Source: Gammaproteobacteria bacterium (GTDB lineage: Bacteria > Pseudomonadota > Gammaproteobacteria > SZUA-140). From it: DNA of 64,000 nucleotides. The first letter of the stretch is position 1. Each line of letters starts with the position of its first letter. The position numbers were made by a program, and so were the translations under genes. Below the pieces are notes generated by a model. That model searched no databases. It saw only the letters and a list, made by a program, of their open reading frames with translations, and was not told the origin of the DNA. Below, piece by piece: positions 1,979-30,725 of the stretch. Location of the stretch: positions 1-64,000 of the forward strand of contig JAKISP010000017.1 of assembly GCA_021648525.1 (NCBI GenBank), given 5' to 3'.

Positions 1979-3679
1979 TTAGAAACTCACCTCAAGGCTG
2001 AAATGAAAACCGTCATCCTGCAGGCTCTTTTCTTTACCGGCTGCAACATTTTTTAATGCATGGCCCCAGTACAACTGGCTGTGTAGCAAGCGGTTCGGAT
2101 GCCAGCGCAATCCAAGGCCAACACTGGAGATGTTTTTTAACGCCTGCCTCTGTTTTGAGACATTATCACCCCCGCCAATATCGTAAAAAGCAGCGATCTG
2201 AAATTTTTGGCTCACCACTGGCATGCGTATTTCCAGAGAACCCATCCAGCCTTTATCCCTGACCATCAAGTTTTCCCGATAACCGCGCACACTGGATGCG
2301 CCGCCCACTCCAAACTGTTCCAGTGGCAGCAGTGAATCGTTAGTGAATTGAAAATCACTGCGTGCCACCAGTTGAATATCATACATTGAGATGCGTTGCA
2401 CCCACTGTAACTGCCCCAGCCATGCGGTGAATTTTCCATCTGGAATGCTCGCTTCATTCCTCGTTGCATCGAGTGCATCCAGCCCAAAACTGATCCTGGA
2501 GCGTATCGCCAGTACTCGATTATCTTTACGGCTGAGCCACTCTTGTCCCAGGCGTAGTACCGCCACGGTGGTTTCACCTTCTTTGGAGCCGATGGAGGGG
2601 TAAGGCTCATTGCCTAAAAAAACAGTTTTACTATTGCGCCGATCCAGTGCCAGCGAGTGGCTAAAGTGGCCAGTTAAGGTGCGCCACAAGGGATGTGTCA
2701 GGCGGATGCCCCAATTTTTGGTTTTGCTTTTAATATCGATGGCATCAAAAGGTTCTTCGATAATCAATGAATCACTGCGGCTTATGTAGAGACCCAGGCG
2801 TGTATCCTGTCGATTCAGCGGCAGGGTATAATTCAAGCTCATATCATCCAGACCTTCTGTGATGCCGTATTGAAAATCAATGGCATCACCGTAGCCGGAG
2901 ATATTCAGATACGAACCCCACAGTTCACCGCGCAGTTCACCGACACTGGGCGAGCGCCGGTTGTTAAATCTAAACCCAAACTCATAAGGGCGACGCTCAT
3001 CAATTATCACCTCCAGAATACTCTCTCCACGCTGTATGCCAGGGTTCAAATGTGCATTGATGCGATTGATCAGGCGATCTTGATGGAGTAGTTGTATTTT
3101 TTCCTGAAGCGTAGGCAGATGCAGAACTCGGTTCTGTGGAAAGGTCAGGCGGCTGCGAATGTAGCGCGGTTCCAAACGTCGATTGCCGCTTATTTTGATC
3201 TCATTCAGATGACCTTCAATAATATTGATTTTGATCACGCCACTTTCGATATCCTGATCAGGAATCATGGCCCCAGAATTGATATAGCCATGCTCAATAT
3301 AGTGCAGTGTCAGTTGACGGCGCAGTGCCTGTAATTCATCAGAAGTGATGTTACGATGTTCATAAGGGCCAGTAATATGGCGTAGCTGTTGATCTGAAAA
3401 CAGCTTGTTGCCACTCAGCTGAACTTGTTTAACATACAGGCTCTCTTGTGCGGAAAGATGTCGATCAGGTGTCTGGATAACGGGAGGAAGCACCATATTT
3501 TTTTGTGGTGCAGCCGGGGCGTCTGTGTATTCAGGCAGAGGCGGCAGATCACCCCCGATTTTTTGTGGAACAAAGTGAGCGGCGGGTTGTGCCATGACAA
3601 CTGAACAGGCCATCAAACAGCCTGAGAATAGCCCGGTATTCAAGTAGAGTTGAATAAAATGCTTGGAAAAAAATCTCAT
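1979..3679 (-). CDS. TpsB/ShlB-FhaC-family two-partner secretion transporter
   Basis: Outer-membrane beta-barrel that exports a large TpsA exoprotein in two-partner (type Vb) secretion. The 566-residue protein has a signal peptide (about 1-30), a proline-rich linker (35-75), two POTRA domains (about 85-235; the first starts VKQVQLSGNKLFSD, the second carries NEIKISGNRRLEP) and a C-terminal barrel ending in a terminal aromatic strand (HFSLEVSF). The VRGYRE motif late in the barrel is the conserved lid-loop signature of the Omp85/TpsB superfamily. Length is normal for the family. No TpsA gene lies in the window, so the partner must be elsewhere or lost. Divergent from the Crp/Fnr gene. Confidence 0.88.
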   Translation of the reverse strand: MRFFSKHFIQLYLNTGLFSGCLMACSVVMAQPAAHFVPQKIGGDLPPLPEYTDAPAAPQKNMVLPPVIQTPDRHLSAQESLYVKQVQLSGNKLFSDQQLRHITGPYEHRNITSDELQALRRQLTLHYIEHGYINSGAMIPDQDIESGVIKINIIEGHLNEIKISGNRRLEPRYIRSRLTFPQNRVLHLPTLQEKIQLLHQDRLINRINAHLNPGIQRGESILEVIIDERRPYEFGFRFNNRRSPSVGELRGELWGSYLNISGYGDAIDFQYGITEGLDDMSLNYTLPLNRQDTRLGLYISRSDSLIIEEPFDAIDIKSKTKNWGIRLTHPLWRTLTGHFSHSLALDRRNSKTVFLGNEPYPSIGSKEGETTVAVLRLGQEWLSRKDNRVLAIRSRISFGLDALDATRNEASIPDGKFTAWLGQLQWVQRISMYDIQLVARSDFQFTNDSLLPLEQFGVGGASSVRGYRENLMVRDKGWMGSLEIRMPVVSQKFQIAAFYDIGGGDNVSKQRQALKNISSVGLGLRWHPNRLLHSQLYWGHALKNVAAGKEKSLQDDGFHFSLEVSF

Positions 3680-3795
3680 TTATTATAGTGTTATACAGGC
3701 GTTTTTTTTCGATTTTTATGCCTTGAAATTAAGGTTCTAAAAACCTTTGCACTCGCATTATAGGCCAATTCAAAGTACTCATGTGGCATTTTGAG

Positions 3796-3801
3796 TATAA
3801 T
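3796..3801 (+). promoter_or_regulatory. -10 element for the Crp/Fnr gene
   Basis: A perfect TATAAT lies 22 bases before the preferred ATG (3823) in the 100-base divergent interval. No good -35 box is visible; a TG dinucleotide three bases upstream could partly compensate. The hexamer would sit inside the coding region if the more upstream ATG at 3781 were used, which supports the later start. Confidence 0.4.
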
Positions 3802-3822
3802 CGCACTACCATCGAGGAAAGT

Positions 3823-4470
3823 ATGATCGAACGTGACCCACTTTTTTCTGAGTTATCATCGGATGATATCTCTCTGATAGCAAGTTACGGAAAAACGCTC
3901 AGCTACCGCAAACATAGCATCATCATCAATAAAGGTGATGAAAGTAACTGCTTGTATATCGTGCAGCAGGGACGGGTGAAGGTTTATGTCAGCGATGAGT
4001 ATGGCGCTGAAATCATTTTGCGCTATGAAGGGCCAGGGGAATACTTCGGTGAACTGGCGCTGGTTGACGAAGCGCCACGTTCAGCGTCTGTAGAAACACT
4101 TGAAGACACCCGATTAACCTATATTTCCAGAGCCAGTTTTGAGGCGTGTCTGCATGACAAACCCGAAATTGCCGTCAAACTCATTCGTACCATGATCACA
4201 CGCATTCGCAGTTTGACCGAAGAGTTATCAGATTGTGCATTGAAAACTGTTTATCAGCGGGTACGTGAAAAACTCACTAAAATGTCAGTCGAGCAAGATG
4301 GAAAGTGGGTGATTCCACAGAGTATGACGCACCAGGAGATCGCGGGACTGGTCGGCTCAAGCCGAGAGATGGTCAGCCGGTTAATGAAAAAACTGCAAAA
4401 TGGCGGTTATATCTCAGTAGAGAAAAAACATATTTCTATTCTTAGAAAGTTACCGCGAAATATACCGTAG
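3823..4470 (+). CDS. Crp/Fnr-family transcriptional regulator
   Basis: Cytoplasmic DNA-binding regulator. The start at 3823 (MIERDPLF) is chosen over 3781 because GAGGAAAG lies just upstream of it and a TATAAT box lies between the two candidates. The N-terminal half is a cyclic-nucleotide-binding fold (IINKGDESNCLYIVQQGRVKVYV, then GPGEYFGELALVDEAPRSASV, the phosphate-binding-cassette region), followed by a dimer helix and a Crp-type helix-turn-helix (TMTHQEIAGLVGSSREMVSR). There is no Fnr-type N-terminal cysteine cluster, so an iron-sulfur sensor is unlikely. Length (215 aa) is normal. Divergent from the TpsB gene, which it may control, but no operator is obvious. Confidence 0.88.
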   Translation: MIERDPLFSELSSDDISLIASYGKTLSYRKHSIIINKGDESNCLYIVQQGRVKVYVSDEYGAEIILRYEGPGEYFGELALVDEAPRSASVETLEDTRLTYISRASFEACLHDKPEIAVKLIRTMITRIRSLTEELSDCALKTVYQRVREKLTKMSVEQDGKWVIPQSMTHQEIAGLVGSSREMVSRLMKKLQNGGYISVEKKHISILRKLPRNIP

Positions 4471-4500
4471 AATCAAGGGGCCAGACACGTGCATGGTTTT

Positions 4501-4529
4501 TTCTCACCCCGGACAGGCCGAGGTGAGAA
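4501..4529. other. stem-loop between convergent genes
   Basis: TTCTCACC (4501-4508) pairs with GGTGAGAA (4522-4529) around a GC-rich loop in the 70-base gap between the convergent Crp/Fnr and protease genes. Neither strand has a T-run after the stem, so it is not a textbook intrinsic terminator, although its position suggests a role in ending transcription. Confidence 0.4.
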
Positions 4530-4541
4530 ATACAGATGATA

Positions 4542-5870
4542 CTACCGTTTAATGGTCACATTCAAAACTGCCTCAGCTTGTTGTACCGGGGTGAAAAATG
4601 ACTGTACACCATTAGAGCCGCTATGTACCCCCCAGGCAGTGTAGTTAAATGACCAGCCGCCACCGCTGTCGCCTCCGATGCTGTCATCACCCGAGACACG
4701 CACGAGGTTTCCTACGGTGCCGATCGAATAGTTTACGATTACGTTTGTCGCCTGCACGGTATGGTTGCAAGTACGAACATTATTCGAGCGTCCATATTCA
4801 CACACAGTCGCGCCCCACATCGTCCAGGTTGAACGGATACTATTTACATCGCGAATTTCTCCCTCGCGTGCGTAAAAATCGTCAAGTTCAAGGTGGTTGG
4901 TGGTGTGATACTCCACGTCGCCCAGCAGGCTGAACTCCTGATCTCGCCAGTTCATGTTAAAAACAAGCCCGCCTTCCTCTTCGAACTGGGTAAGACCGTT
5001 GCAGTGTGCTGCGGTGATGATGCCATCCCCATTCGGGCCACTCACAGACCAACCACTGGTACACCAGCGAGTGCCGCTTGATAATCTAACCCAGTTACCT
5101 CCTCTGGCATGATCGAACTCCATGATCGGCCCTTCGCCACGAATGGTTTTAATCTTTATATTTTTTCTGCTAAGCGAACGGATCTGGTCGCTTAGCTCTG
5201 TTCCCCTAAGTTCATTTTGAATGGCGTGAAGAACCTGTTGAGGATCTGGATTTCTGGCATGCTCAGGAATCTTGATATCAAGCTGAATGACATCATTGAT
5301 GACATCGTAAAACGATGAAGAGTTGATATAGCCCAGTTTCCTTAACCCTTTAGCAGCCGCCTCTGCGCGTTTTATCTGATTTTTAAGGGAGATTGTGGCA
5401 CCGCCAGTGACCGACACATTGGCGGGAACTCTTTTTTGACGCATATCCTGCGCAACGCCAGCCGGTATTTTACCCACAAACTGAATAAATGATTGCGTCC
5501 CGGGTGCTGGCTCTTGCCATATCCGCGCAATACGATCTGCATAGCGGACAATCACTCTGTCACCATAACGCGCAAACGTATCCTGAGCCTTGATGGCACG
5601 TTCGGCCTCTGCGTAGCTCATGCCGGATTCCTTTGCGAGCAGTTCGACATCGACAGTCATGCCTTTGCCGCTCGGTTGATCTGTGCGGTTAGAGTAATCT
5701 TCCATGGGAGAAAGTTCACTATTTTCTACCGCCTGTTTAAGTTCTTCAGGATGGGAATACCAGATATCATCTGTGGACTTGTCGATACCATTCGCGCCAA
5801 CTGTAGCGGGTACTGAAAGTGCAATAAAGTATGCAAGCGGTTTTATTAGACTGCTGTATTTTCCATTCAT
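4542..5870 (-). CDS. secreted trypsin-like (S1 family) serine protease with propeptide
   Basis: Probable exported serine protease. Residues are numbered from an upstream ATG at 5885; the start at 5870 is preferred because GGAG precedes it, whereas the first ATG has no ribosome site. A signal peptide ends near PATVGANG, followed by a propeptide of about 220 residues and an S1 domain. The triad is visible as H294 in ITAAHC, an Asp in the LELDD stretch (335/336) and S407 in GGDSGGG. Cysteine pairs C275/C295 and C362/C373 suggest alpha-lytic-protease-like disulfides. It is last in a leftward run of peptidase-related genes but separated from them by a 440-base gap containing a large palindrome. 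Confidence 0.85.
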   Translation of the reverse strand: MNGKYSSLIKPLAYFIALSVPATVGANGIDKSTDDIWYSHPEELKQAVENSELSPMEDYSNRTDQPSGKGMTVDVELLAKESGMSYAEAERAIKAQDTFARYGDRVIVRYADRIARIWQEPAPGTQSFIQFVGKIPAGVAQDMRQKRVPANVSVTGGATISLKNQIKRAEAAAKGLRKLGYINSSSFYDVINDVIQLDIKIPEHARNPDPQQVLHAIQNELRGTELSDQIRSLSRKNIKIKTIRGEGPIMEFDHARGGNWVRLSSGTRWCTSGWSVSGPNGDGIITAAHCNGLTQFEEEGGLVFNMNWRDQEFSLLGDVEYHTTNHLELDDFYAREGEIRDVNSIRSTWTMWGATVCEYGRSNNVRTCNHTVQATNVIVNYSIGTVGNLVRVSGDDSIGGDSGGGWSFNYTAWGVHSGSNGVQSFFTPVQQAEAVLNVTIKR

Positions 5871-5959
5871 TTTTTTGCTCTCCATGATTTAATGATCCGC
5901 GATTAATATTAACCTGTATTTTCAGCTTTAAGGCATGTAACTATTCAGCTACCTTACAG

Positions 5960-6114
5960 GCACCTCTATTAATTCATGAACGCGCATCTTAAACCCCAAA
6001 TCCGCTATATCGGTGTTGTAAATTGCAGCAATAGTCCCGCTCTTGCCCACAATTTTCGCCTGGATGTAACGAATATTGGGTTCAATCTGTCACGTCCAGA
6101 ATTAATAGAGGTGC
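5960..6114. repeat. 155-bp imperfect palindrome (fold-back element)
   Basis: The ends are exact inverted copies: GCACCTCTATTAATTC at 5960-5975 and its complement at 6099-6114. The similarity continues inward. Read from each end, the two strands are recognisably alike for about 70 bases with a one-base offset, so the whole segment could fold back on itself. Both strands also encode similar short peptides (IRYI ... GF ... ELIEV), with several differences at third codon positions. It lies in the gene-free stretch 5871-6308 between peptidase genes. Origin unknown: a MITE-like element or an inverted duplication of a small coding segment. Confidence 0.6.
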
Positions 6115-6221
6115 TCTTAAGAGAAATTCTGCTGAATACAATGACAATGGGCTGTGCCTTTTGATACCGATAAAACGTGAAAAATCACAATGAGCGCTGG
6201 AGCGTAAAAAGATATGTTGGT

Positions 6222-6239
6222 AATGTTCTACAGAACATT
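6222..6239. other. short perfect hairpin downstream of small peptidase-cluster gene
   Basis: AATGTTCT and AGAACATT are separated by two bases, about 70 bases downstream of the stop codon of the 75-residue gene. A short T-rich stretch follows on the plus strand only. It could stabilise or end the leftward transcript, but it does not have terminator form on that strand. Confidence 0.3.
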
Positions 6240-6308
6240 TTATTGCCAAAAAGTCGGATTAAAAAAATGCCTACGTCGTATGGCCTTTCTGCTCGACAGG
6301 CCGGTGTA

Positions 6309-6536
6309 TTACTGGGCACTGATTTTTCCAATGTAGGTGATTTTGACAGGTATTTTGAATATTTCTTTTGGCAGTTTGGCCTGAACCTGCTCGACAGGGG
6401 CCGAGGTGCTGAGCATGAGACAGACCTCGCCCCTTTCATTCAAGCCGGTACTGATGGACTCAATCCCTTCTGTTGCCATGATCTCGTCATCAAATTTGGC
6501 GCGCACCTGCTCTATTTTTTCTCTCTCTTCTTTCAA
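6309..6536 (-). CDS. small protein resembling the N-terminal domain of the nearby protease
   Basis: A 75-residue protein of unknown function. I choose a TTG start at 6536 because AGGAG lies 8 bases upstream; the frame is open further upstream (ATG at 6611), but that stretch is low-complexity and lacks a ribosome site. The pattern GIESISTGLNERGEVCLML, then LPKEIFKIPVKITYIG, parallels residues 35-95 of the leaderless protease at 7582 (VVGLGIGYKE ... ISVYV ... IPKTLDDVTTDVVEVG). It may be a free-standing copy of that domain, possibly an inhibitor or chaperone. The homology is by eye. Last gene of the tight leftward peptidase group. Confidence 0.6.
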   Translation of the reverse strand: MKEEREKIEQVRAKFDDEIMATEGIESISTGLNERGEVCLMLSTSAPVEQVQAKLPKEIFKIPVKITYIGKISAQ

Positions 6537-6637
6537 TACCTTTCTCCTCGAATTTTCCAGGATAATTCTCAATTGCACATTCAAAAAGCCCCCCCCTCTC
6601 CACCAGACCAATGGCGAACGGGGAGTTAAATCAAAGA

Positions 6638-7546
6638 CTAAAACACATGAATATGCGGCACACAGAGATAATTGGCCGACCCGGTGGAAAAGTCATTTTT
6701 CACATGGGAGCCACCGCCCTGCGCACGCGCATGCAGCTTTATACGTGCCCGGATAAAGACCCAGTCACCACCGGCGAGAAGGTAGCTGTTATTGGTATGC
6801 CGGTCGATATCAAACCGTCTGGTGCGATTGATATTGCCACCCTGCTCATTGAGGACGTTGACGCTGTTCCAGCCCTTCCAATTGTACTGATAGCAGTTTG
6901 TTTCCACCGTGATCACCGATTTGGCATGTTTACAATTATACCATTTGTCGTTCGCCTTCACGACATAGTAGCCACGGAAGCGGAAAAGCGGGCGGATGCT
7001 GTAGAACTTGGTGACCGCCGGCCTGAACCAGAACCCAAACTCCGCGTGGCTCGTGATGCTCCCGACCCCGCCAGTACAGCCCCAGCCACCACCATTAGCA
7101 GAATTCCAAAGATTCCTGCAGCCCAGAAAATTCCTCGAGAGCGTGGATTGTGCACTGATCAGGCTATCCTGTTGATCGTCATCCGAGAATACGGCTGACC
7201 AACTCGGCTCTAACTTGAAGGTGTCCGGCGGCAGCAGGCCTGACGATACATCGATGCCACCATCAAGGTTAACGGGGAGTTGGGAAACTTCGTCCATGTT
7301 CGCAATAGTGGCTTCCAGTTCGCCATTACTAATCTCGTTCTGCTCTAGCTCAAGCGCATCAAGTTTAGCCATATTGACGCCCATGGCTTCCAGCACGGAT
7401 CTGTCGCATGGCATCGTCTCTGCCGTCCTGGCCGCCGCGCTTTTTTCTGCGATGGAGACGGCCATCTCCTGGTGGTTCTCTTCGGTGATATCGCGTGTGA
7501 TTTCTTCATGCATGCGGATCAATTCATTTGATATTTTCATTTTCAA
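6638..7546 (-). CDS. unknown protein in peptidase cluster
   Basis: 302 residues, not recognised. The ribosome site AGGGAG is well placed before the ATG. No signal peptide or membrane segment is apparent. The N-terminal third is helical and acidic (ITRDITEENHQEMAVSIAEK); a middle segment is Asp/Ser-rich; the C-terminal half is rich in Gly, Trp, Tyr, Asn and paired Cys, suggesting a beta-rich extracellular-type fold or lectin-like domain. It lies 35 bases downstream of the leaderless protease gene on the same strand, so the two are probably co-transcribed. It could be the substrate, effector or partner of that protease; this is inference only. Confidence 0.65.
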   Translation of the reverse strand: MKMKISNELIRMHEEITRDITEENHQEMAVSIAEKSAAARTAETMPCDRSVLEAMGVNMAKLDALELEQNEISNGELEATIANMDEVSQLPVNLDGGIDVSSGLLPPDTFKLEPSWSAVFSDDDQQDSLISAQSTLSRNFLGCRNLWNSANGGGWGCTGGVGSITSHAEFGFWFRPAVTKFYSIRPLFRFRGYYVVKANDKWYNCKHAKSVITVETNCYQYNWKGWNSVNVLNEQGGNINRTRRFDIDRHTNNSYLLAGGDWVFIRARIKLHARAQGGGSHVKNDFSTGSANYLCVPHIHVF

Positions 7547-7581
7547 CTCTCCCTGATTATTGGGTGTACTCTAAAATCGCC

Positions 7582-8514
7582 TTACGCAGTGACAATCTCT
7601 ACGCCAAGCGCCATCAACACATTGTTGATATTGTTGTGGACGGTTACTCTGCTCGATCCCGCAAACAATAGGCCCGTTGCTTCTCTTGTGCCGCGTTCTA
7701 ACAGCAAGGAACCCGAATCCCCCCCCTGAGACATAGCCGTGGTCAATACCTGATTGCGAAAATACGCGACGCCCGAGGCGCCATAACTGACCGCGATCGT
7801 CGCATCGATGCCGATGACCCTTCCGCTCGTGGTTTCCGTGGTGCGGCCGCTCTTGGTCACAGCCATTCCGAGGGTGGCTTCAGTCGTGCCTTTGGGAATC
7901 CCCAGGCCGACAATAGAGGCGGTAACATTTCTCAGGTCGCTGGGTCGTGCAATCGCGGCATCCACCAGATTGTGTGCGGCGCGATCATTGAATCGAATCC
8001 GCACAAACCGGGCCAAACGGGCGATGGTGTCGTTGGCGACACTGCCACCGTCCACCCGACCCGGTTGCAAAATACGGTCGCCGATAACGGCGGCATTGGC
8101 GTTGGCAAATACATGGTTATTGCTGAGGATATAGATGCGGCATGGCGAGCAAGCATCCCTGACCAGACAGCCAAATGTTCCCGCCGTTATCCTGAAATGT
8201 CCCATGCTGTAACCGGGTTTTACCGGGCGCATTCTGCTGGTAAATGCCTGCGCCTCGACGTCACCAACTTCAACCACATCTGTCGTTACGTCGTCGAGTG
8301 TCTTTGGAATCTGCTCGCAAGATTCCAGTGACTTCACGGCCACCTTTTTTCTCACATAGACACTGATGCAGTGCTCCTTTGTCTCTTTACCTTTTGTTTC
8401 CTTGTAGCCAATGCCCAGGCCCACGACATTGGGCAGTTCGAAAATGCTTTCCTCCTTGTCATCTTTGACTTGCTGGATTTTTGCGAATTGAATAGTTTCT
8501 TTTTCATGTGCCAT
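7582..8514 (-). CDS. leaderless trypsin-like serine protease
   Basis: Probable cytoplasmic serine protease. The start at 8514 (MAHEKETIQ) has AAGGAGAG upstream; an in-frame ATG 30 bases earlier does not. Residues here are numbered from that earlier ATG. There is no signal peptide. An N-terminal domain (about 35-95, VVGLGIGYKE ... ISVYVRKK) precedes the trypsin fold: H144 in LSNNHVF, D195 in VDAAIARP and S277 in GGDSGSL. Intracellular trypsin-like domains of this kind occur in bacterial conflict and regulatory systems. It heads a leftward group with two unknown genes and lies about 560 bases from the end of the NACHT gene, also leftward. Confidence 0.82.
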   Translation of the reverse strand: MAHEKETIQFAKIQQVKDDKEESIFELPNVVGLGIGYKETKGKETKEHCISVYVRKKVAVKSLESCEQIPKTLDDVTTDVVEVGDVEAQAFTSRMRPVKPGYSMGHFRITAGTFGCLVRDACSPCRIYILSNNHVFANANAAVIGDRILQPGRVDGGSVANDTIARLARFVRIRFNDRAAHNLVDAAIARPSDLRNVTASIVGLGIPKGTTEATLGMAVTKSGRTTETTSGRVIGIDATIAVSYGASGVAYFRNQVLTTAMSQGGDSGSLLLERGTREATGLLFAGSSRVTVHNNINNVLMALGVEIVTA

Positions 8515-8568
8515 CTGGACTCTCCTTTGTATGTGCGATATCACTCCCGTATATTTCTTGCTTATGAG

Positions 8569-8612
8569 CCGGACGCCGGATCTAGTGCAACATGACGGCT
8601 GTCCGGTTTTTT
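8569..8612 (+). terminator. rho-independent-like hairpin
   Basis: CCGGAC (8569-8574) pairs with GTCCGG (8601-8606), with an inner GCCG/CGGC pairing possible, and six T residues follow on the plus strand. No intact plus-strand gene precedes it. It may be a relic, or on the minus strand part of the leader of the protease transcript. Confidence 0.4.
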
Positions 8613-8873
8613 AAAGAAGAGATATACTCAGTGGGTGAAACTATGAGCGAATCAAACAGCGTGTACCGTGAAGGGTTGCCGGAAGTTTTGTGATTTAATC
8701 ACTGATTTTACGCAGTCGCATTCTTAAGGAAAAAACTGAGAATAATTCATGATGAGAATCGATTGACCTGAAATAAACAGCCATCCTTTTCCGCCAGACG
8801 AGCGGCTTCCTCGAAAGAATACCAATTGAAGTGGAATAATGACTCGTTTATCTAAGTTAAGAAAACAATACTC

Positions 8874-8904
8874 ACAACTGCGCACGCCCGGCATGCGCAG
8901 TTGT
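8874..8904. other. 11-bp perfect stem-loop
   Basis: ACAACTGCGCA (8874-8884) and its exact complement (8894-8904) flank a nine-base GC-rich loop. It abuts the Calx-beta remnant. It has no T-run on either side, so it is more likely a mobile-element or recombination relic than a terminator. Confidence 0.45.
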
Positions 8905-9001
8905 TGAGGGGGATGAGACGGTGGTGCTGACCATTAACGCTAGCAGTGCGTATACAGTGGGCACTCCCGATAGCGGTACCGTGACTATCACGGATCTTTG
9001 A
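8903..9001 (+). pseudogene. Calx-beta domain C-terminal remnant
   Basis: A short open stretch ending in TGA encodes VEGDETVVLTINASSAYT, then VGTPDSGTVTITDL. This matches the last strands of Calx-beta repeats found in large bacterial surface proteins. No upstream coding sequence remains, so this is the 3' scrap of a deleted surface-protein gene. Apart from this, the two hairpins and spacer sequence, 8515-9075 holds no gene. Confidence 0.6.
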
Positions 9002-9075
9002 TCTGATAAATTATAGGTACATCATGAAAACTAAAGAAAACATATATGAACGATGTGTAGAAGTGAAATAAAGCA

Positions 9076-11478
9076 TTATAAATTTTTGGCAAAATATTCA
9101 GCCAATGAACGATGTATAAATAGATAGCCACTGCCAACCCGATAAAGAAACGCACGGCGCACGGCAAACGCCAGGAAAGGGGTGTAACGAAGCGGAGCAG
9201 TTTTGTTGCGCCACAGGAAATAGCGTAAAAGATAATGCTGAATGCAGGCGTGGCCACCCAGAAACAACCCACTAATCACACCGAGTGTAACACTTGTTGA
9301 TATCACACTTTTCAGGTCGCCAGTGAACAGGCCGGCTGTAGCACCCAGCGCGCTACCTAAGGTTAACCCTGCGAGTGCATTGTACAAAGATATGTGGATA
9401 GCTTCATTAGGCACTGACGGTTGAGACGAATGATGTTTAAGCCGTTCAAAATCCAGCGAGTTGGTGACTATTAGCAACAAAAAGAAAAAAATTCCCAATG
9501 TAATACTAATCACAGGGTTCAACAATAAAGCAGCTCCGCCACCAAAAGTGGTCGCGAGCACGGCCGAACTTATTAATTTAAAGGAAAGTTTATAGCGCAA
9601 TGTATTTAGCGATAATCGTATACGGGCAACAGGCTTAATTTTATCACCGTAACCCCATCTAGCGGTTAAATAGCACCCGACAAAACCCACTGTCAGAAAT
9701 AAAGGCAGGTTGGTCGACATGCCAAAAAGCGGTTTGCTCAACAGACTCAGGGTTAAAATGACAATTATACCGCAAATATAGATAGATCCCCTGGAGATGA
9801 TCCAGCGTTGCAAAGTTGTGCCTGCCCAATCTGGCTGTATTCCGTCAAGATAGAAGAGGCTCTGTTTTTTATCAATAAGTGTGCGGGCCAAACACCCCAG
9901 CCAGTGAGTCGCCTGTGCGGGGCTGTACGGGAGGTGTTTATTGCGACGTTGAAACATCGCCTGCACGTAGGCCGAGAACAGTTGATCCTGTAGCGTATTT
10001 TTTGAGCTTTCTTTTAAAAAATCGCCACCGTGATAATTTTTATAAGCAGTGGTTGCAATGCTAAGCATCAATGGTGTCGTCAATAATGTTTTGATTTCAC
10101 TATTATGGGTAACGGCAGCATGCAGACCATAAGAAGGTACACTGATTGTTTGTAAATAGTGGTCGAGTTGTTTCGAGCTGAGTGGTTGAATAACAACAGC
10201 ATTTTTCAAAGCTAGCGGCGGTGAACAATTTGTATAATCACCTTCCCGACTGCATATTGCCATGCCTACTGGCCTGGGCTGATTTTGAAATTTGTTGAGC
10301 GCCTGGATACAACTCATCTGGCACTCTACATTGACTTCATCAAGACCATCCAGTAATAACAATAGTGCATGATCACTGATCATTTCAGCGCTAAGCTGTC
10401 GTGGCATCTGGTAGCGATTTTCTAATTCATCGATTAACCAGTCGCCCAGGTCTGTGTATTGGCTGCTCCAGGTGGAGAGATGTAGCACCACTGGAATAGG
10501 CATATGTTCATTTTCTTCGGCACGTTCTAGTGTTTTTTTTGCTAAATTTAATAGCAGTGTCGTTTTTCCTGAACCGGGTGCCCCCAGGATAAGCATGTTT
10601 TCATGAAGCTCTTCAAATATATCAATAATGGGTGTTTTAGACGGAAAAAGACGAGTACTGCGATGAGGCTGCGGTACAATAGATCCCCAGGGTTGATGGA
10701 GGCACTCAGGTGCTTCTTTTAATGCAAGCGCTATTACAGGTTTTTTGTTTAAAGAATGCGCTAATAAACCGTCAACCCAGAATGCCTTAACTTTTTTCAG
10801 GAGTGACGTTCGATATAGTGACAGGTCATTCACCCGCCTTTTTTCTACTGTTATTTCTGCACCAGTATGGTTGCCACTGTTTTCGCTTTGCTGGTGCATG
10901 AAAGCAGGTGTTGCAGAACCACAAGAATTAAGTGTAGAGGCCTCATCAGACTGTTCTTGACCAATATTGGAGGATAAATCTCTTGCCAGGGCATGTTTTA
11001 TCTCTTTCTGTAAAGAGCGTTTGTTGAGGGCTAACCAGTGTGAAAATTCAGGGTCGTTTGCGTTTAATTCACCCAAAACTTCGCCGTTAAATCGGTCGAG
11101 TAATGGTGATAGCTCAATCGCACCATCAATGCTTTTTTTGGCATCTACCCAAACTTTATTTAATTGAACATAAATATTGTTGCGGTCGGCAGATATAAAA
11201 CCAGGAATAAACTTGTCAAATATTCGTCGCAATATGCTAAGGCTTTGTCGTAACGATGCCCGTGCCTGCTGATGGGCATGGCGACTCCATAGTAATTGGC
11301 TTATTTTTTCTCTGGAAACAGCACCGCTATTTTCGACTATAAGTACCGCCAGGAGACAACGTGCTTTTGTTGCAGTCGGAGTGATATCAAGATTATCAAT
11401 GCCATATACGCGGAATTTACCAACCAGATGGATTCGAACAGGCTGGTCTATGGTCAGTAATGAATGTTGATTTTCCAC
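9076..11478 (-). CDS. SARP-type DNA-binding + NACHT NTPase + transmembrane protein
   Basis: An 800-residue membrane-linked STAND-type protein. Residues 15-115 form a SARP-like (OmpR/PhoB-type winged-helix) domain (HLVGKFRVYG ... KARCLLAVLI ... ASLRQSLSILRRIF), followed by a possible short BTAD-like helical part to about 170. The NACHT NTPase spans about 285-480, with Walker A GAPGSGKTT at 299-307 and Walker B LLLLLDGLDEV ending near 382. The C-terminal third has five or six hydrophobic segments (about 575-770) and ends with the NACHT-associated pattern GYLFIHRSLAEYFA. Both DNA binding and membrane insertion are predicted. It may be a sensor-regulator or a conflict-system NTPase. The neighbouring genes are peptidases and unknown proteins. 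Confidence 0.82.
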   Translation of the reverse strand: MENQHSLLTIDQPVRIHLVGKFRVYGIDNLDITPTATKARCLLAVLIVENSGAVSREKISQLLWSRHAHQQARASLRQSLSILRRIFDKFIPGFISADRNNIYVQLNKVWVDAKKSIDGAIELSPLLDRFNGEVLGELNANDPEFSHWLALNKRSLQKEIKHALARDLSSNIGQEQSDEASTLNSCGSATPAFMHQQSENSGNHTGAEITVEKRRVNDLSLYRTSLLKKVKAFWVDGLLAHSLNKKPVIALALKEAPECLHQPWGSIVPQPHRSTRLFPSKTPIIDIFEELHENMLILGAPGSGKTTLLLNLAKKTLERAEENEHMPIPVVLHLSTWSSQYTDLGDWLIDELENRYQMPRQLSAEMISDHALLLLLDGLDEVNVECQMSCIQALNKFQNQPRPVGMAICSREGDYTNCSPPLALKNAVVIQPLSSKQLDHYLQTISVPSYGLHAAVTHNSEIKTLLTTPLMLSIATTAYKNYHGGDFLKESSKNTLQDQLFSAYVQAMFQRRNKHLPYSPAQATHWLGCLARTLIDKKQSLFYLDGIQPDWAGTTLQRWIISRGSIYICGIIVILTLSLLSKPLFGMSTNLPLFLTVGFVGCYLTARWGYGDKIKPVARIRLSLNTLRYKLSFKLISSAVLATTFGGGAALLLNPVISITLGIFFFLLLIVTNSLDFERLKHHSSQPSVPNEAIHISLYNALAGLTLGSALGATAGLFTGDLKSVISTSVTLGVISGLFLGGHACIQHYLLRYFLWRNKTAPLRYTPFLAFAVRRAFLYRVGSGYLFIHRSLAEYFAKNL

Positions 11479-11550
11479 GGTATCTATCTGTTGGCACTTT
11501 GTATAGCTAACGTGCTTTAAGAGTCAGTATAAAATATTTTTAAATAGGGC

Positions 11551-11649
11551 GAGACCTTTGCACGAGTCTATTTTTCGCTCCAGCTGCGTTATAAATGATC
11601 TTAAAACAGGCCTTGCTGGAGCGAAAACTAGTTCTCGTGCAAAGGTCTC
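11551..11649. mobile_element. 99-bp MITE-like element with IS5-type ends
   Basis: GAGACCTTTGCACGAG (11551-11566) and its exact complement (11634-11649) bound a 99-bp segment. A second inner inverted pair (TTTTCGCTCCAGC and its complement) extends the symmetry. The ends resemble terminal repeats of IS5-group insertion sequences; no transposase is present. AGGG lies close to both outer edges but is not positioned symmetrically, so a target duplication is uncertain. It occupies the divergent interval between the NACHT gene and the 418-residue gene and may carry promoter signals for either. Confidence 0.65.
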
Positions 11650-11916
11650 AGGGTGTATCTATATTTTATGGATAACGATTTTAAAAAGCGAACATTTATA
11701 CATTATATCTTTGATGAACATCTCATTTTATTTCAAAAATGGTTGCATGCTTTATAAAGTAGCAAGGTGAATATATTGTGATCAGGTGGGGCATCGTGAA
11801 ACCAGCGTTAAAACAACGTGAATTCGATTAGTGTTGACTGTAATTAATCTGCATGAGTGATAGCGTGCAATTTGTCTCAACCATTAAAACATACATGCTT
11901 AACAAGGGATTAAATA

Positions 11917-13173
11917 ATGTCACAAATATGCTTGGCCGATATTCCGCGCACGACCTACACTGAGTGCGATAAATGTATCGACAGTTACCTAACCTATTCT
12001 GAAACCACATACCCGGTGGTCGGCGGTCAAACCGTGGTGTGTACCCTTACGCGCAAATACCGCTGGCGCACATGTCACATGGGGCTTGCAGTCGGACGTC
12101 ATGTCTATTCTATTACACTATTGCCAGGCGAAGAGGTCGAATTAGAGGTCGTGCGTCGGGAGAAATTTACCACTGCGTTGCATGAGCAAAATTCCATTGA
12201 GCAGGAACTTGAATTTGAGATCCAGGAGACGCTTCGCGAAGAGTGGAGTCAAAAATCCGATGCTCTCTATGAATCCACCAAGCAGAACAACTGGAAGGTT
12301 TTTGGACAGAAACGTCAGACAATCAATCAATACCGCGATGAAGTTGCTCTTTTTGAGAGCACTATGTCTGAGGTCGTATCCACGGCGGCCGCAAGAGTTT
12401 CAGCGAAATACGAAACCTCAATCGATATCAAAACTGAAGTGGAGAACAAGTATCGCGCAGTTCGCAAGGTCAAAAATCCCAATCGCTGTCAGCCTGTGAC
12501 TTTTCACTACTTTCAGTTGGTGAAAAAAATTCGCCGTGAACTGTTTTTAGTCGAACAAACGTATGACTGTAGCTCTCCTGCAGCTGATACGACACCAGCC
12601 CCTGGGCTAACCACTTACCGTACGTCTGCCGGTCGCCCACAAAATTTGCGGCCCAGAGTTGTGGCACCCCCACCGCAATGGACCCTAACTGAACCTGCCG
12701 TGTCTGTAACGACCGAAGCTGCCTGTGGTGATCCCGTGTCCAGCCCGATAGAAAGCGTGATCACAGTGCCTTTCGAACAACCGGTGACGAAACAACTCAG
12801 CAAGAATAGAGTGATCGCTGATATCCGTGCCACAGCCGGTGACGAAGCTGCACGTGAGATGCAGCAGCATCTTGACCAGATCGACGATATTGCCGACCCT
12901 AGCGGCGGCGGGCTAATTCTCTCCGAGGATATTTGTTTAGGCACCGACAGCTTTCATGTCGAAGGGATGGTCTCAAACTGCGCGATATGCGAGGACGTGG
13001 AGTTGAAAAAAGAGGAATTCGAGTGCAAGCGAATTGAATTGGAAATCCAGAAACTCAAGTGTGAAATCGACCTCTGTCAAGTACAACTCGGTGATAAAGA
13101 AGACCATGAAAAGTCGACTAACTGCAAAGACGAAAAAGCACGAAAAAAGGAGAAGCACTGCAATAAAGGCTAA
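11917..13173 (+). CDS. unknown cysteine-rich, coiled-coil protein
   Basis: 418 residues, not recognised. No signal peptide. The N-terminal part is cysteine-rich (CLADIP ... ECDKCIDSY) and leads into a beta-like segment ending GRHVYSITLLPGEEVELEVV. Then follow long charged helices likely to form a coiled coil (about 85-175, HEQNSIEQELEFEIQETLRE), a Pro-rich linker (215-260), and a C-terminal Lys/Glu/Cys-rich helical tail (EEFECKRIELEIQKLKCEID). The layout suggests a scaffold or oligomeric structural protein. It is transcribed away from the NACHT gene and followed at 127 bases by another unknown gene on the same strand. Confidence 0.65.
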   Translation: MSQICLADIPRTTYTECDKCIDSYLTYSETTYPVVGGQTVVCTLTRKYRWRTCHMGLAVGRHVYSITLLPGEEVELEVVRREKFTTALHEQNSIEQELEFEIQETLREEWSQKSDALYESTKQNNWKVFGQKRQTINQYRDEVALFESTMSEVVSTAAARVSAKYETSIDIKTEVENKYRAVRKVKNPNRCQPVTFHYFQLVKKIRRELFLVEQTYDCSSPAADTTPAPGLTTYRTSAGRPQNLRPRVVAPPPQWTLTEPAVSVTTEAACGDPVSSPIESVITVPFEQPVTKQLSKNRVIADIRATAGDEAAREMQQHLDQIDDIADPSGGGLILSEDICLGTDSFHVEGMVSNCAICEDVELKKEEFECKRIELEIQKLKCEIDLCQVQLGDKEDHEKSTNCKDEKARKKEKHCNKG

Positions 13174-13300
13174 TAGAGTATACCGATATTTTATAGATAA
13201 CTGTCAATAGCGAATGCTCGCATATTGTTTCATCGATACACATTTGATTTTATTTGAAGATGCACCACGAAAATTATATTAAAAATATGGAGTTTCACAC

Positions 13301-14413
13301 ATGAATAAATATATTACCAAAACATTGACTCAGGAGTTCCCTGTATCCAAATCGTTAAACACATTTCTGTTCTTAATCTGCTTGTTTTTCTTAATCAATA
13401 CAACCACTGCCAATGCCAGATATGAGGTGTTTTTTGATGGGGGTGGTATAAATGCAGGTAGTATCGTTGTATCGAATGATGCTGCCCCTGTACCCGATGG
13501 TGTTTGTGGTATGAGTATCAATGGTGTTGATTTATTGGCTTTTCACTGGACAGAATACAATGAATATAATCTTGGCTCACCGATGCCTGCCCCTCCCCTT
13601 GGGCCACCTAGCGACGCGGAGTATGATTTTCCTGGCGAAGCGTTAGAAGGTGTCATCAGGTTCACTGGTCCATTGAGTGATAATTGTGAAGACGAATGGG
13701 TTTTTCAGCTACCCTTAACGGGAGCCTGGCCTGTTTTGCCTAATGGAACGCCTTCTGGTGCGGGCGCATTAGTTTTTCAAACAATTGATGTTGTCTGGCT
13801 GGATGAAAGTTTTCAGATATGGGTGCCCGCCGATGATGGCCCTGGTAGTCAAGAGGATCCTGAATTTCCCTCTTTTTGTGAGGTGTGGCCCGATTTATGT
13901 GGAGACCCAGAGTTTACAGCTGGGCCTGGTATAGACGTATTTTGTTTTTTACACCCACAACTATGTGATGTAGCAGAAGAATTTAACATTATAGGTTCAG
14001 TCATCAAAAAGAACATACAACTTGTGATTAAAGAACTGAATATTAACACGGTAGTTTCAGCGAGAAATGCCACAGAGCGCTTAATCAGGGCAAAGAGTGC
14101 CGCAATTTACGCATTACAAAGCACTGAAAAGTTCAATTTTAATAATATCAAAGAGGTGAAGTCAGGAATATTGCATAATGCAAATGCACAGCTAGACACA
14201 ACAATAATGGCTTTGCGATCTTGTGTCAGTACTATTGAAAAAATGCAATCAACGATTAAAAATAGGACTGAAAAAGCATTATCGAGCGATTTTTTTGCTA
14301 ATTCAACACATGAGGTGATTTATCGATGTAAGGCTGCAGTTATTAGCTTAGCCCAGGTAAAGAACCAGCTACAACAAATGCCACATCATTTTATAAGTAC
14401 CAATAAGCGTTAG
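13301..14413 (+). CDS. unknown exported protein
   Basis: 370 residues, not recognised. The first 38 residues include a hydrophobic core (TFLFLICLFFLINTTTANA) typical of a Sec signal peptide with an extended N-region. The mature N-terminal half is beta-like and rich in Gly, Pro and Asp; paired CxxxxxxLC motifs occur twice (FCEVWPDLCGD, FCFLHPQLCD). The last 140 residues are helical and Lys/Asn-rich. A long hairpin follows the stop. It is AT-rich relative to the housekeeping genes, suggesting foreign origin. A secreted or periplasmic partner of the preceding gene is possible but unproven. Confidence 0.65.
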   Translation: MNKYITKTLTQEFPVSKSLNTFLFLICLFFLINTTTANARYEVFFDGGGINAGSIVVSNDAAPVPDGVCGMSINGVDLLAFHWTEYNEYNLGSPMPAPPLGPPSDAEYDFPGEALEGVIRFTGPLSDNCEDEWVFQLPLTGAWPVLPNGTPSGAGALVFQTIDVVWLDESFQIWVPADDGPGSQEDPEFPSFCEVWPDLCGDPEFTAGPGIDVFCFLHPQLCDVAEEFNIIGSVIKKNIQLVIKELNINTVVSARNATERLIRAKSAAIYALQSTEKFNFNNIKEVKSGILHNANAQLDTTIMALRSCVSTIEKMQSTIKNRTEKALSSDFFANSTHEVIYRCKAAVISLAQVKNQLQQMPHHFISTNKR

Positions 14414-14450
14414 GCTTTAATATAGAAAAGTGTAACATTGGTTGGTTTGA

Positions 14451-14488
14451 ATAAGAAGCAAGGATATTTCAATATTCTTGCTTCTTAT
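14451..14488 (+). terminator. long hairpin downstream of exported-protein gene
   Basis: ATAAGAAGCAAGGATATT (14451-14468) pairs with 14471-14488 over 18 bases with one G-U pair and a two-base loop. It lies 38 bases after the stop codon of the 370-residue gene. It lacks a strong T-run but is the obvious end-of-transcript structure. Confidence 0.5.
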
Positions 14489-14567
14489 ATGAAAAATAAT
14501 GCGACTCCTTTCCTTTACTTCGTAAAAACATGATTCAAAAAGGGTATCCACTAAGCCAGTTTTTTAG

Positions 14568-14750
14568 CTATACCGCTGACATCAACGATGCTTCCAGTTC
14601 CTGGAAGGTGTGTGCCCGATTGGACGGCTCGACATTGATGCCGAGTTTTCGGCTGATACGGGTGGTGGATAACAGGCCACGAATGGCATTGGCATCCCTT
14701 TCTACCACTAGTGCATGTTGGCGATTGAACATTCTCATGGTCTCAACGAG
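14568..14750 (-). pseudogene. CBS-domain protein C-terminal remnant
   Basis: The minus strand encodes MRMFNRQHALVVERDANAI, then RGLLSTTRISRKLG and RAHTFQELEASL before a TAG at 14568. This matches the end of stand-alone CBS-domain proteins. The frame upstream is disrupted and the first CBS repeat is absent, so this is a truncated relic. Confidence 0.6.
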
Positions 14751-14929
14751 ACCATTAACTCCCCACGCAGATAATATTGAGACAATAAGTTACCTGATAA
14801 AGAGCTGGTGCCAGCGATGAATCACTTTATCTGGTTTTGAATCAGTTCAGGTAAACGACCATCCAGGATAACGTAGTTTTAATTTTGTACTGCACCCGTT
14901 TACTTTCGGCGATTCGTCCTCAAACAAGG

Positions 14930-15083
14930 TCACTTTCCTTTTACAGTCATCCTAATTTTACTCATCAGAAAACCAATCACATCAATAAATTCTTCTGGGC
15001 TGTGCACTAAAGAAGAAGGGACAACAGGATACTGGCTATCAACGATAATCGATGGCACTCCCTGGGTTCCATCCGGTGCAGCG
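14930..15083 (-). pseudogene. DsbA-like thioredoxin-fold protein, C-terminal remnant
   Basis: The minus strand encodes GVPSIIVDSQYPVV, then SPEEFIDVIGFLMSKIR, ending in TGA at 14930. The cis-proline loop (GVPSIIVD) and following helix are characteristic of the DsbA/thioredoxin C-terminal half. The catalytic CxxC half is missing. Together with the CBS scrap, it shows that 14.5-15.1 kb is a site of repeated deletion. Confidence 0.5.
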
Positions 15084-15100
15084 CTTTATTATCTATTTTA

Positions 15101-15538
15101 TTATGCACCCAGCAAAGGCAAGTGTTTAATATTGTGATAGGTGAGTGATAAAGTAATGCAATGTTTTAACTCGTTTACTGATATTTTATCGTTTACATTA
15201 AATACTATAGCCCTGTTACCCTCAAAGTTGAACTTGTTTTTATATATCTCTTTAAATGTATCAACTAGTTTTGTTTTACAGTGAAAATATATTGCATATT
15301 GATCTGGCTTTGATTTTTCCCAGCCCATTCTTATTGTGCTACCACCTTTTACAAGGTAGCCAGGGCCGCCCCATTTTAGTGTTTCTTCAATGCTTTTAAC
15401 GCTTTCAATTCCCCTGGATACCTCTAATATTAGCTGGCGAATAAACATCATTTTTGAACGAATATTTTTTGGGTAAACATCGAATACTTGCTTGACTTCC
15501 AGATTGCTAAATTTATCCATTTTTATTTTTTCACACAT
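15101..15538 (-). CDS. DUF1801 (YdhG-like) family protein
   Basis: 145-residue cytoplasmic protein of the DUF1801/YdhG-like fold, related to frataxin-like folds; biochemical role unknown. Recognised from the central IEETLKWGGPGYL ... GSTIRMGWE pattern followed by YAIYFHCKTKLVDTFKEIY. An internal ATG at residue 7 is an alternative start; neither candidate has a strong ribosome site. The gene is very AT-rich compared with the housekeeping block, suggesting recent acquisition, and has no functional neighbours. Confidence 0.75.
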   Translation of the reverse strand: MCEKIKMDKFSNLEVKQVFDVYPKNIRSKMMFIRQLILEVSRGIESVKSIEETLKWGGPGYLVKGGSTIRMGWEKSKPDQYAIYFHCKTKLVDTFKEIYKNKFNFEGNRAIVFNVNDKISVNELKHCITLSLTYHNIKHLPLLGA

Positions 15539-15844
15539 AACGCCATGTTCAGCAGCAATTTATTAGCAATAATTTATGACTGAGATAAAATATTATACAC
15601 TTTTTCATTCACTCCGAGACCTGAAAAAATCAAACTAACAGTGGCAATTTTGTATAGTCATGCCATTCCTTTTCTTGTAATGGTTCTTCGTAGGTTTGTG
15701 TGAAATCAGGGGACAGATTAAACCTCGAAGTGCATAACTATCCACTTTAGAAAAAACACGTATGATAAATCAGAGCGTTCTTTAGAAGTTTCACCGATGG
15801 CCGCTAAAATAAGTAATCATTTCATCACACTTTAAACCATCATT
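15539..15844. other. gene-free interval
   Basis: 306 bases without a supported gene on either strand. The only notable piece is a stretch near 15705 (CAGGGGACAGATTAAA) of the kind often found beside REP-associated transposase relics. Nothing else is identified. Confidence 0.4.
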
Positions 15845-29785: not shown

Positions 29786-30725
29786 TGGGTTGCCACTTCT
29801 GTATTTGATGATTAGCGTAGTCAGCCACGAATACCGTGCCATCTTCTGTTACTGCCACGGCAATAGCGGTATGGGTAGGCCCTTGTGCTGGAATGCCAAA
29901 GGCATTAAGGAATTTACCTTCTGGCGTGAACTTCTGTACCCGGTCGTTATAAAAGTCGGCGACAAAAATATTGCCCTGCGGGCCAACACTGAGGCCGGTG
30001 ACGGTGGCAAACCAGCCATTAAACGAACCAAAGATATTCATTGCCAGAGGGCCTCCCCATTTATGGGAAAAATCACCATTGGGACTAAAGACCTGAACCC
30101 GGTCGTTATAGCCATCGGCGACATAGCGTGTACCGTCCGGAGCGATAGCGACATCGGTGGGATAGTTAAACTCACCGGCCCAAACGCCTGTTTCACCAGA
30201 GGTTCCCCATTGGCGAATAAAGCCACCCTTCGCATCTAACTGCTGGATGCGTTGGTTATAAAAATCGGCAATAAAAAGGTCACCATTTGATGCAACAGCA
30301 ACACCACCGGGCGCATTGAATTCACCCGGCCCCGCACCGGGCTTACCGATGGCGCGCACAAACTGACCTTGTCGCGTGTAGACCTGAATCACATCGTTGA
30401 AATAATCCGCCACATAGAGTTCGCCATTGGCCACGACCAGATTCATCGGGCGCTCCAGTTTGCCTGTGCCCGCGTCACCCAGTAGCCGTTGGAAGTTTCC
30501 GTCAAGATCGAAGACCTGGATACGACCATTGCGCGAGTCGCTGACAAAAACCTCTGATTTCGATACGGCAACACCCGTAGGTTCATTGAACAAGCCTGGA
30601 GTTCCACCTTTACCTCCCCAGGTTTTTACCAACTGATAGGGCGGCTCTTTGACTGAGGGAAACCAGGCGCAGGATGACAACAACAGTGCGCCCACCATCA
30701 CGACCAACCACTTGAGTCGAAACAT
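29778..30725 (-). CDS. NHL-repeat lipoprotein
   Basis: 315 residues. Lipobox signal peptide (VVMVGALLLSSC) predicts a lipid-anchored periplasmic or surface protein. The body is a six-bladed NHL beta-propeller: repeated units such as VFVSDSRNGRIQVFDLDGNF, LFIADFYNQRIQQLDAKGGF and IFVADFYNDRVQKFTPEGKF. Propellers of this kind mediate protein or ligand binding. Its place between an outer-membrane protein and a thioredoxin-like protein, behind a MerR-controlled promoter, suggests a role in metal handling not described for mer operons. Confidence 0.85.
   Translation of the reverse strand: MFRLKWLVVMVGALLLSSCAWFPSVKEPPYQLVKTWGGKGGTPGLFNEPTGVAVSKSEVFVSDSRNGRIQVFDLDGNFQRLLGDAGTGKLERPMNLVVANGELYVADYFNDVIQVYTRQGQFVRAIGKPGAGPGEFNAPGGVAVASNGDLFIADFYNQRIQQLDAKGGFIRQWGTSGETGVWAGEFNYPTDVAIAPDGTRYVADGYNDRVQVFSPNGDFSHKWGGPLAMNIFGSFNGWFATVTGLSVGPQGNIFVADFYNDRVQKFTPEGKFLNAFGIPAQGPTHTAIAVAVTEDGTVFVADYANHQIQKWQPSE

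Follow-up and report, generated by a model that had tools for sequence, protein, structure and literature searches.

NLR-type receptors are viewed as switches in the cytosol, with the sensor as a separate part at the C-terminus, KAP P-loop NTPases (Kidins220, PifA) carry transmembrane (TM) segments inserted in the NTPase module, within the P-loop domain, and CadC/ToxR-type regulators, which lack an NTPase and have their sensor in the periplasm, tether an OmpR-type wHTH to the membrane by a single TM helix. In AfsR, a large SARP of Streptomyces, the NTPase domain (NOD) restrains the head until ATP binds (PMC10936776), and SARPs bind direct repeats at 11 or 22 bp spacing (PMC10936776, PMC4393881). 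In bNACHT anti-phage proteins, a central NACHT is combined with an N-terminal effector position (PMC12169576), and in NLRC4 the residue H443 is ADP-proximal and its mutation causes oligomerisation (PMC8283967). The window analysed here, that is, the whole stretch of 64,000 nucleotides, encodes a protein (P0001) that was confirmed to combine a probable OmpR/SARP-type winged-helix head with a NACHT NTPase and with six helices of hydrophobic character (Table 1). We regard it as an evenly balanced proposition that P0001 is a membrane-embedded, NLR-like transcription switch which would activate the divergent 418-aa gene (P0002) via 11-bp repeats.

Table 1. Positions of the features in the window, with the basis of each assignment
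Feature	Position	Strand	Basis or remark
SARP-head NACHT membrane protein, 800 aa (P0001)	9076..11478	-	GTG start as given
Probable OmpR/SARP-type winged helix, residues 14-112	11143..11439	-	Homology, predicted secondary structure, Pfam below cut-off
Truncated BTAD-like stretch, residues 125-170	10969..11106	-	Alignment with L102/L045/L051
Conserved pre-NACHT segment (LLKKVKAFWVDGLLAHSL...), residues 215-262	10693..10836	-	Alignments
NACHT NBD and HD1, residues 290-510	9949..10611	-	Pfam, structural comparison, alignment
Walker A GAPGSGKT, residues 299-306	10561-10584	-	Within NACHT NBD
Walker B LLLDGLDE, residues 374-381	10336-10359	-	Within NACHT NBD
Six-helix membrane block, residues 555-757	9208..9816	-	Inserted within NACHT winged-helix domain
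Second half of NACHT winged-helix domain, residues 765-800	9079..9186	-	Structural comparison, profile, alignment
Switch histidine H789, invariant	9112-9114	-	Within residues 765-800
Short MITE copy between SARP-NACHT and 418-aa gene	11550..11650	.	Not part of mechanism
Conserved promoter region common to G009 (C127, C3, C73)	11650..11883	+	DNA alignment
Candidate SARP operator CATCGTGAA-CAGCGTTAA-CAACGTGAA	11792..11822	+	9-nt direct repeats, 11-bp period
-10-like TGTAAT	11839..11844	+	Conserved in four sites
418-aa gene (P0002), inferred target	11917..13173	+	Distant homologue P0012 in G009
370-aa apparently secreted protein	13301..14413	+	Downstream of 418-aa gene; signal peptide by eye

The open reading frame of P0001 was found where the original prediction had placed it, and the frame stays open for 15 codons upstream of the given GTG, which makes the start uncertain. 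The sole Pfam domain above the cut-off was NACHT (PF05729, E = 4.3e-10, residues 295-442), and the STAND/NACHT features, namely Walker A, Walker B with its acidic cluster, HD1 and the winged-helix domain (WHD), were all present, with G299, G302, G304, K305, D377, D380, E381 and R411 invariant across the 58 relatives in the family alignment. This domain order supports the original prediction that DNA-binding head, STAND NTPase and membrane domain belong to one polypeptide. The AlphaFold2 model of P0001 had a mean pLDDT of 77, with most of the NACHT above 90 and the helices at about 65-95. Another species of the same genus (G009) also encodes the protein in full, 83% identical across all 800 residues and with no stops, indicating that the fusion is real and kept intact. 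A decaying or chimeric, non-functional gene might be suspected from the accessory island and from the Calx-beta-like remnant and MITE adjoining the P0001 gene, but it is very improbable given that the full-length frame is open in the second species at this identity and that Walker A, Walker B, the sensor R and the WHD His are all intact. The remnant itself is non-coding (window 8896-9005; translation VVEGDETVVLTINASSAYTVGTPDSGTVTITDL) and a sign of past recombination at the island edge. The MITE, about 100-139 bp long, is bounded by terminal repeats of 17 bp (TGAGACCTTTGCACGAG), with 3-bp sequences at its flanks that appear to be target duplications; besides the window copy, there are copies at L007 9695-9833 and 12366-12508 and 19 perfect arm matches in its own genome, and contig C127 of G009 represents the empty site of the window copy.

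The membrane block is where P0001 departs most clearly from the original prediction, which had described a five- or six-helix C-terminal membrane region. The multi-helix part of that description was borne out, since hydropathy averaged over 59 relatives gave exactly six hydrophobic segments (residues 563-739) and AlphaFold2 placed helices at residues 555-581, 587-609, 624-652, 655-674, 692-719 and 722-757, whereas the C-terminal position was not, because the block sits inside the NACHT winged-helix domain, before H789. The turns on one side of the block are of 1-5 residues, and the loops on the other side are longer and basic, the second loop carrying eight K/R, suggesting three hairpins with both ends probably cytosolic. 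No Pfam model matched over the membrane block of P0001. In the AlphaFold2 model, residues 214-800 aligned to the NBD-HD1-WHD of NLRC4 (residues 93-454, Z 16.9), NOD2 (195-594, Z 16.7) and NLRP3 (135-533, Z 16.4). Residue 800 pairs with NLRC4 454, which lies 11 residues beyond NLRC4 H443, so that H789 would take the H443 position if the final stretch is ungapped; H789 was unchanged in 58 of 58 relatives. Moreover, once the membrane columns were removed, the family profile aligned through the WHD end (FTHQLLQEFFTA) of a soluble NACHT-FGE protein (E = 1.3e-21), and its alignment with a second soluble NACHT (L009) halted before the WHD end. Based on the NLR structural alignment and on the membrane-less profile reaching the soluble WHD end, the most plausible reading is that the six helices are inserted into the NACHT winged-helix domain and do not form a C-terminal sensor.

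For the DNA-binding head, the fold searches took the whole P0001 model and the assignment was made from sequence and predicted secondary structure (helix-helix-long helix-hairpin), the head-only AlphaFold2 model being poor (pLDDT 39) and kept out of the fold search. The single sequence is weak in this respect, as Trans_reg_C on the head alone reached E = 0.0015, below the Pfam curated cut-off, and AfsR and EmbR matched only weakly, near threshold; comparison across the family provides better evidence. The head of L051, from a gammaproteobacterial MAG, was 45% identical to that of P0001, the cyanobacterial L102, which has the same architecture, bears a full BTAD (E = 2e-20), and a Sulfitobacter wHTH-TPR protein from outside the NACHT family matched the head at 35% over 138 aa. 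The head profile against the PDB gave EmbR at E = 0.067 and AfsR at E = 0.99, values that are suggestive only. No BTAD Pfam match was obtained in P0001, and about 40 residues align with the BTAD of relatives; with the BTAD cut to this length, "SARP-type head" seems a fair label for P0001 and "SARP" in the strict sense does not. The BTAD of AfsR makes many sigma contacts, and its near absence from P0001 counts against the transcription-switch reading.

The membrane-NACHT core was not restricted to SARP-headed proteins. A scan of one genome per species recovered at least 307 relatives, among the matches listed mainly from cyanobacteria and Chloroflexi and also from Chlorobi, Actinomycetota, Pseudomonadota, Verrucomicrobia and an ANME-2c archaeon, and plasmids of Nostoc, Tolypothrix, Calothrix and Acaryochloris also bear the core. 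Pfam analysis of the N-termini identified TIR heads (L055, L064, L069, L071, L072, L082, L096), CHAT heads (L063, L070, L087, L088, L094), Ser/Thr kinase heads (L052, L056, L059, L060, L065, L084, L086, L091, L092, L106, L127), XRE-type HTH heads (L053, L090, L098, L128) and others (DUF4062 in L105, AAA_35 in L061, and SARP/BTAD); the Thiotrichaceae-like G051 and G195, whose N-termini gave no Pfam match, were left out of the SARP-headed count. The occurrence of TIR, CHAT, kinase, HTH and SARP heads on one core indicates that the membrane bundle is the common scaffold and the head an exchangeable output, the SARP head being a rare variant and the WHD-inserted bundle common. The gammaproteobacterial SARP forms grouped as one clade (support 99) in a quickly built tree, with L102 elsewhere, pointing to at least two acquisitions of the SARP head. 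Two further relatives are worth recording. The membrane NACHT of a Sphaerospermopsis plasmid (L039 2935-5658) has an extra C-terminal region with a CxxCH motif and a TM helix, which resembles a haem-binding sensor attached behind the WHD, and in G195 (L028 4844-7950) a relative of the G051 membrane NACHT lies in two frames, probably through a frameshift. No relevant paper on SARP with NACHT was found in the literature searched, and an earlier mention of membrane NACHTs is possible.

These sister heads also bear on function. TIR and CHAT are known death effectors, and their presence on the same core raises the alternative that P0001 is a STAND conflict (anti-phage) receptor whose wHTH head serves as an effector or adaptor, blocking DNA or transcription on infection. 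The patchy distribution of SARP-NACHT, which two of ten same-genus genomes carry, at different places in the genome, would fit such a role, as would a CHAT-headed membrane NACHT on a plasmid of Nostoc sp. C057 (L040 1125-4755) that adjoins a Trypco2 gene and an alpha/beta hydrolase and is the best direct link of the scaffold to conflict systems. However, PADLOC yielded only P-loop and partial matches for P0001, SARP-NACHT was not found in annotated phages and viral contigs gave two weak NACHT matches only, and the DNA-binding head together with the nearby operator-like site points to regulation. An anti-phage function is thus rather unlikely, its remaining weight coming from the TIR and CHAT sister heads.

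The neighbourhood did not sustain the proposed partnership of the NACHT gene with the adjacent proteases. The block at window 1979-8734, comprising a Crp-family regulator with NAL1-type and other trypsin-like proteases, was 93% DNA-identical and in the same order in the same-genus G003, which lacks SARP-NACHT, whereas the SARP-NACHT relatives in G009 and L051 occur without the block. It forms an independent conserved unit that has no relation to the NACHT gene. Window 8734-15744 constitutes an accessory segment between two blocks common to relatives. In G009, SARP-NACHT adjoins an NHL-repeat gene within a cytochrome cluster; the same cluster is present in G000 (the genome of the window), G003 and G004, in all three of which homology to G009 stops at the NHL stop codon, beyond which G009 has the NACHT gene. 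In L051, SARP-NACHT lies near cobJ-like and mltF-like genes. The three SARP-NACHT loci compared share no neighbours, and no conserved linkage with trypsin or Trypco genes emerged from them. A trypsin-NACHT conflict unit, for which adjacency in this window is the only argument, was thus rejected on synteny in both directions, and membership of P0001 in such a system is extremely doubtful. The description of the protease cluster as leaderless holds for P0003, with its NAL1-type trypsin match and no signal peptide by eye, but not for P0005, whose N-terminal hydrophobic stretch is signal-peptide-like. Elsewhere in the window (29911-30414), a 54-nt direct repeat occurs in four imperfect copies at intervals of about 150 bp, which likely belong to a beta-propeller repeat gene.

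The other neighbour fared differently: homologues free of the noted neighbours were found as regards the proteases (G009, L051) but not as regards the 418-aa gene. As a single query, P0002 had no relative in 20 genomes, and it had none in viral contigs. Through the promoter region that it shares with the P0002 gene, a 565-aa protein of G009 (P0012) was found, and the two are distant homologues according to blastp (E = 8e-4 in a two-sequence database) and alignment (23%). With a profile built from both, the family was found in just two of 55 relatives, G000 and G009, which are also the two with SARP-NACHT, a coincidence with a chance of 1 in 1485 if the two were independent. The genes are adjacent in G000; in G009 they are on different contigs, one of only 5.4 kb, and might still be linked there. 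This co-occurrence, together with a SARP-like candidate operator in the promoter of the 418-aa gene, upholds the original suggestion that this gene might accompany the NACHT gene. The gene of the 370-aa protein is a possible operon partner.

The candidate operator comprises CATCGTGAA, CAGCGTTAA and CAACGTGAA at exact 11-bp steps between the SARP-NACHT and 418-aa genes, and the 3' repeat would occupy the -35 position, its end lying 16 bp, not 8, from the -10-like box; a scan of the intergenic region for a classical sigma-70 promoter gave none. Since the 11-bp period was picked after looking, the shuffle p of 0.002 for period 11 has to be read beside that of 0.05 across periods 8-24, and the 64-kb window has four equally good period-11 triples on both strands, this site included. 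With up to one mismatch, the repeat pattern occurred once in G000 (this site) and once in G009, and not in the SARP-less G003, G004 and G005 or in viral contigs. The surrounding region (window 11650-11883) was 81% identical to the DNA upstream of P0012; among 20 relatives, it was present in the two SARP-NACHT carriers and absent from the 18 non-carriers. G009 has four copies of it, three full, each facing a downstream same-strand gene, and a partial one (C127). The genes behind the full copies encode P0012, a signal-peptide protein with BTRD1 (polyglycine hydrolase-like) repeats (L160 2710-4449, contig C3) and a large PKD protein divergent from SARP-NACHT. Two of the G009 candidate operator sites have 10+11 spacing.

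These observations have to be weighed against the possibility that P0001 is a membrane-bound STAND regulator whose true targets are elsewhere, the repeats being a promoter or repeat that was duplicated long ago. The four operator sites share homology, did not evolve independently and count as one origin, L051 has no such repeats upstream of its SARP-NACHT, and one C127 site is only partial, all of which favour such a relic. By contrast, extra copies on other contigs were found only in the carrier genome (0 of 18 non-carriers), each full site, in G009 as in the window, faces a same-strand gene, and the copies lack terminal inverted repeats or shared ends. Repeats unconnected with P0001 are accordingly considered unlikely, and the best reading of these sequences is that P0001 would control a very small regulon, with the 418-aa gene among its members.

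For the membrane-embedded switch, the following mechanism is proposed. The NACHT module (NBD, HD1 and WHD) would keep P0001 inactive with ADP, and the six TM helices, built into the WHD beside the ADP-sensing histidine, would allow a change in the membrane or a membrane ligand to shift the WHD, leading to ATP exchange and oligomerisation. Clustering would then gather several SARP-type heads on the cytosolic side, where they may bind the row of 11-bp direct repeats, which overlaps a weak -35 region, and draw in RNA polymerase. This would switch on the divergent 418-aa gene, along with a few other accessory genes in the sister species. More tentatively, and with the balance somewhat against it, P0001 may represent a widespread class of NLR-like receptors that sense the membrane via the WHD six-helix bundle and have interchangeable outputs (NADase, protease, kinase, transcription factor), its own form acting by transcription from its 11-bp-repeat regulon. 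The SARP-headed form offers a reporter behind the predicted operator, by which the trigger of the family could be screened without cell death.

Compared with known systems, P0001 resembles AfsR in that a probable SARP/OmpR-type wHTH at the N-terminus precedes a STAND NTPase; however, the published domain map of AfsR shows a complete BTAD and a TPR sensor at the C-terminus but no membrane helices, whereas in P0001 the BTAD is truncated and the six-helix block lies within the WHD. With bNACHT anti-phage proteins, it shares the central NACHT and N-terminal effector position, but it has no C-terminal sensor domain and low similarity in PADLOC and NCBIfam. Like KAP NTPases, it has predicted TM segments inside the NTPase module, but its Walker A (299) is separated from Walker B (377) by 78 residues free of such segments and the helices start from residue 555, on which grounds KAP membership, with TM helices between the two motifs, was rejected. 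The predicted tethering of an OmpR-type wHTH to the membrane is reminiscent of CadC/ToxR-type regulators, which differ in their single TM helix, periplasmic sensor and lack of an NTPase. The cyanobacterial membrane NACHTs, annotated only as "NACHT domain-containing protein", share the whole core (223-798), the six helices and the C-terminal motif, and differ in having no head, or a TIR, CHAT, kinase or HTH head in place of SARP. Finally, animal NLRs (NLRC4, NOD2, NLRP3) have the NBD-HD1-WHD fold and the WHD histidine position in common with P0001, in which the intra-WHD membrane block replaces the LRR sensor and a DNA-binding head takes the place of CARD or PYD; the candidate sensor in this family is a membrane bundle inside the switch itself, with an output head swapped across bacterial phyla.
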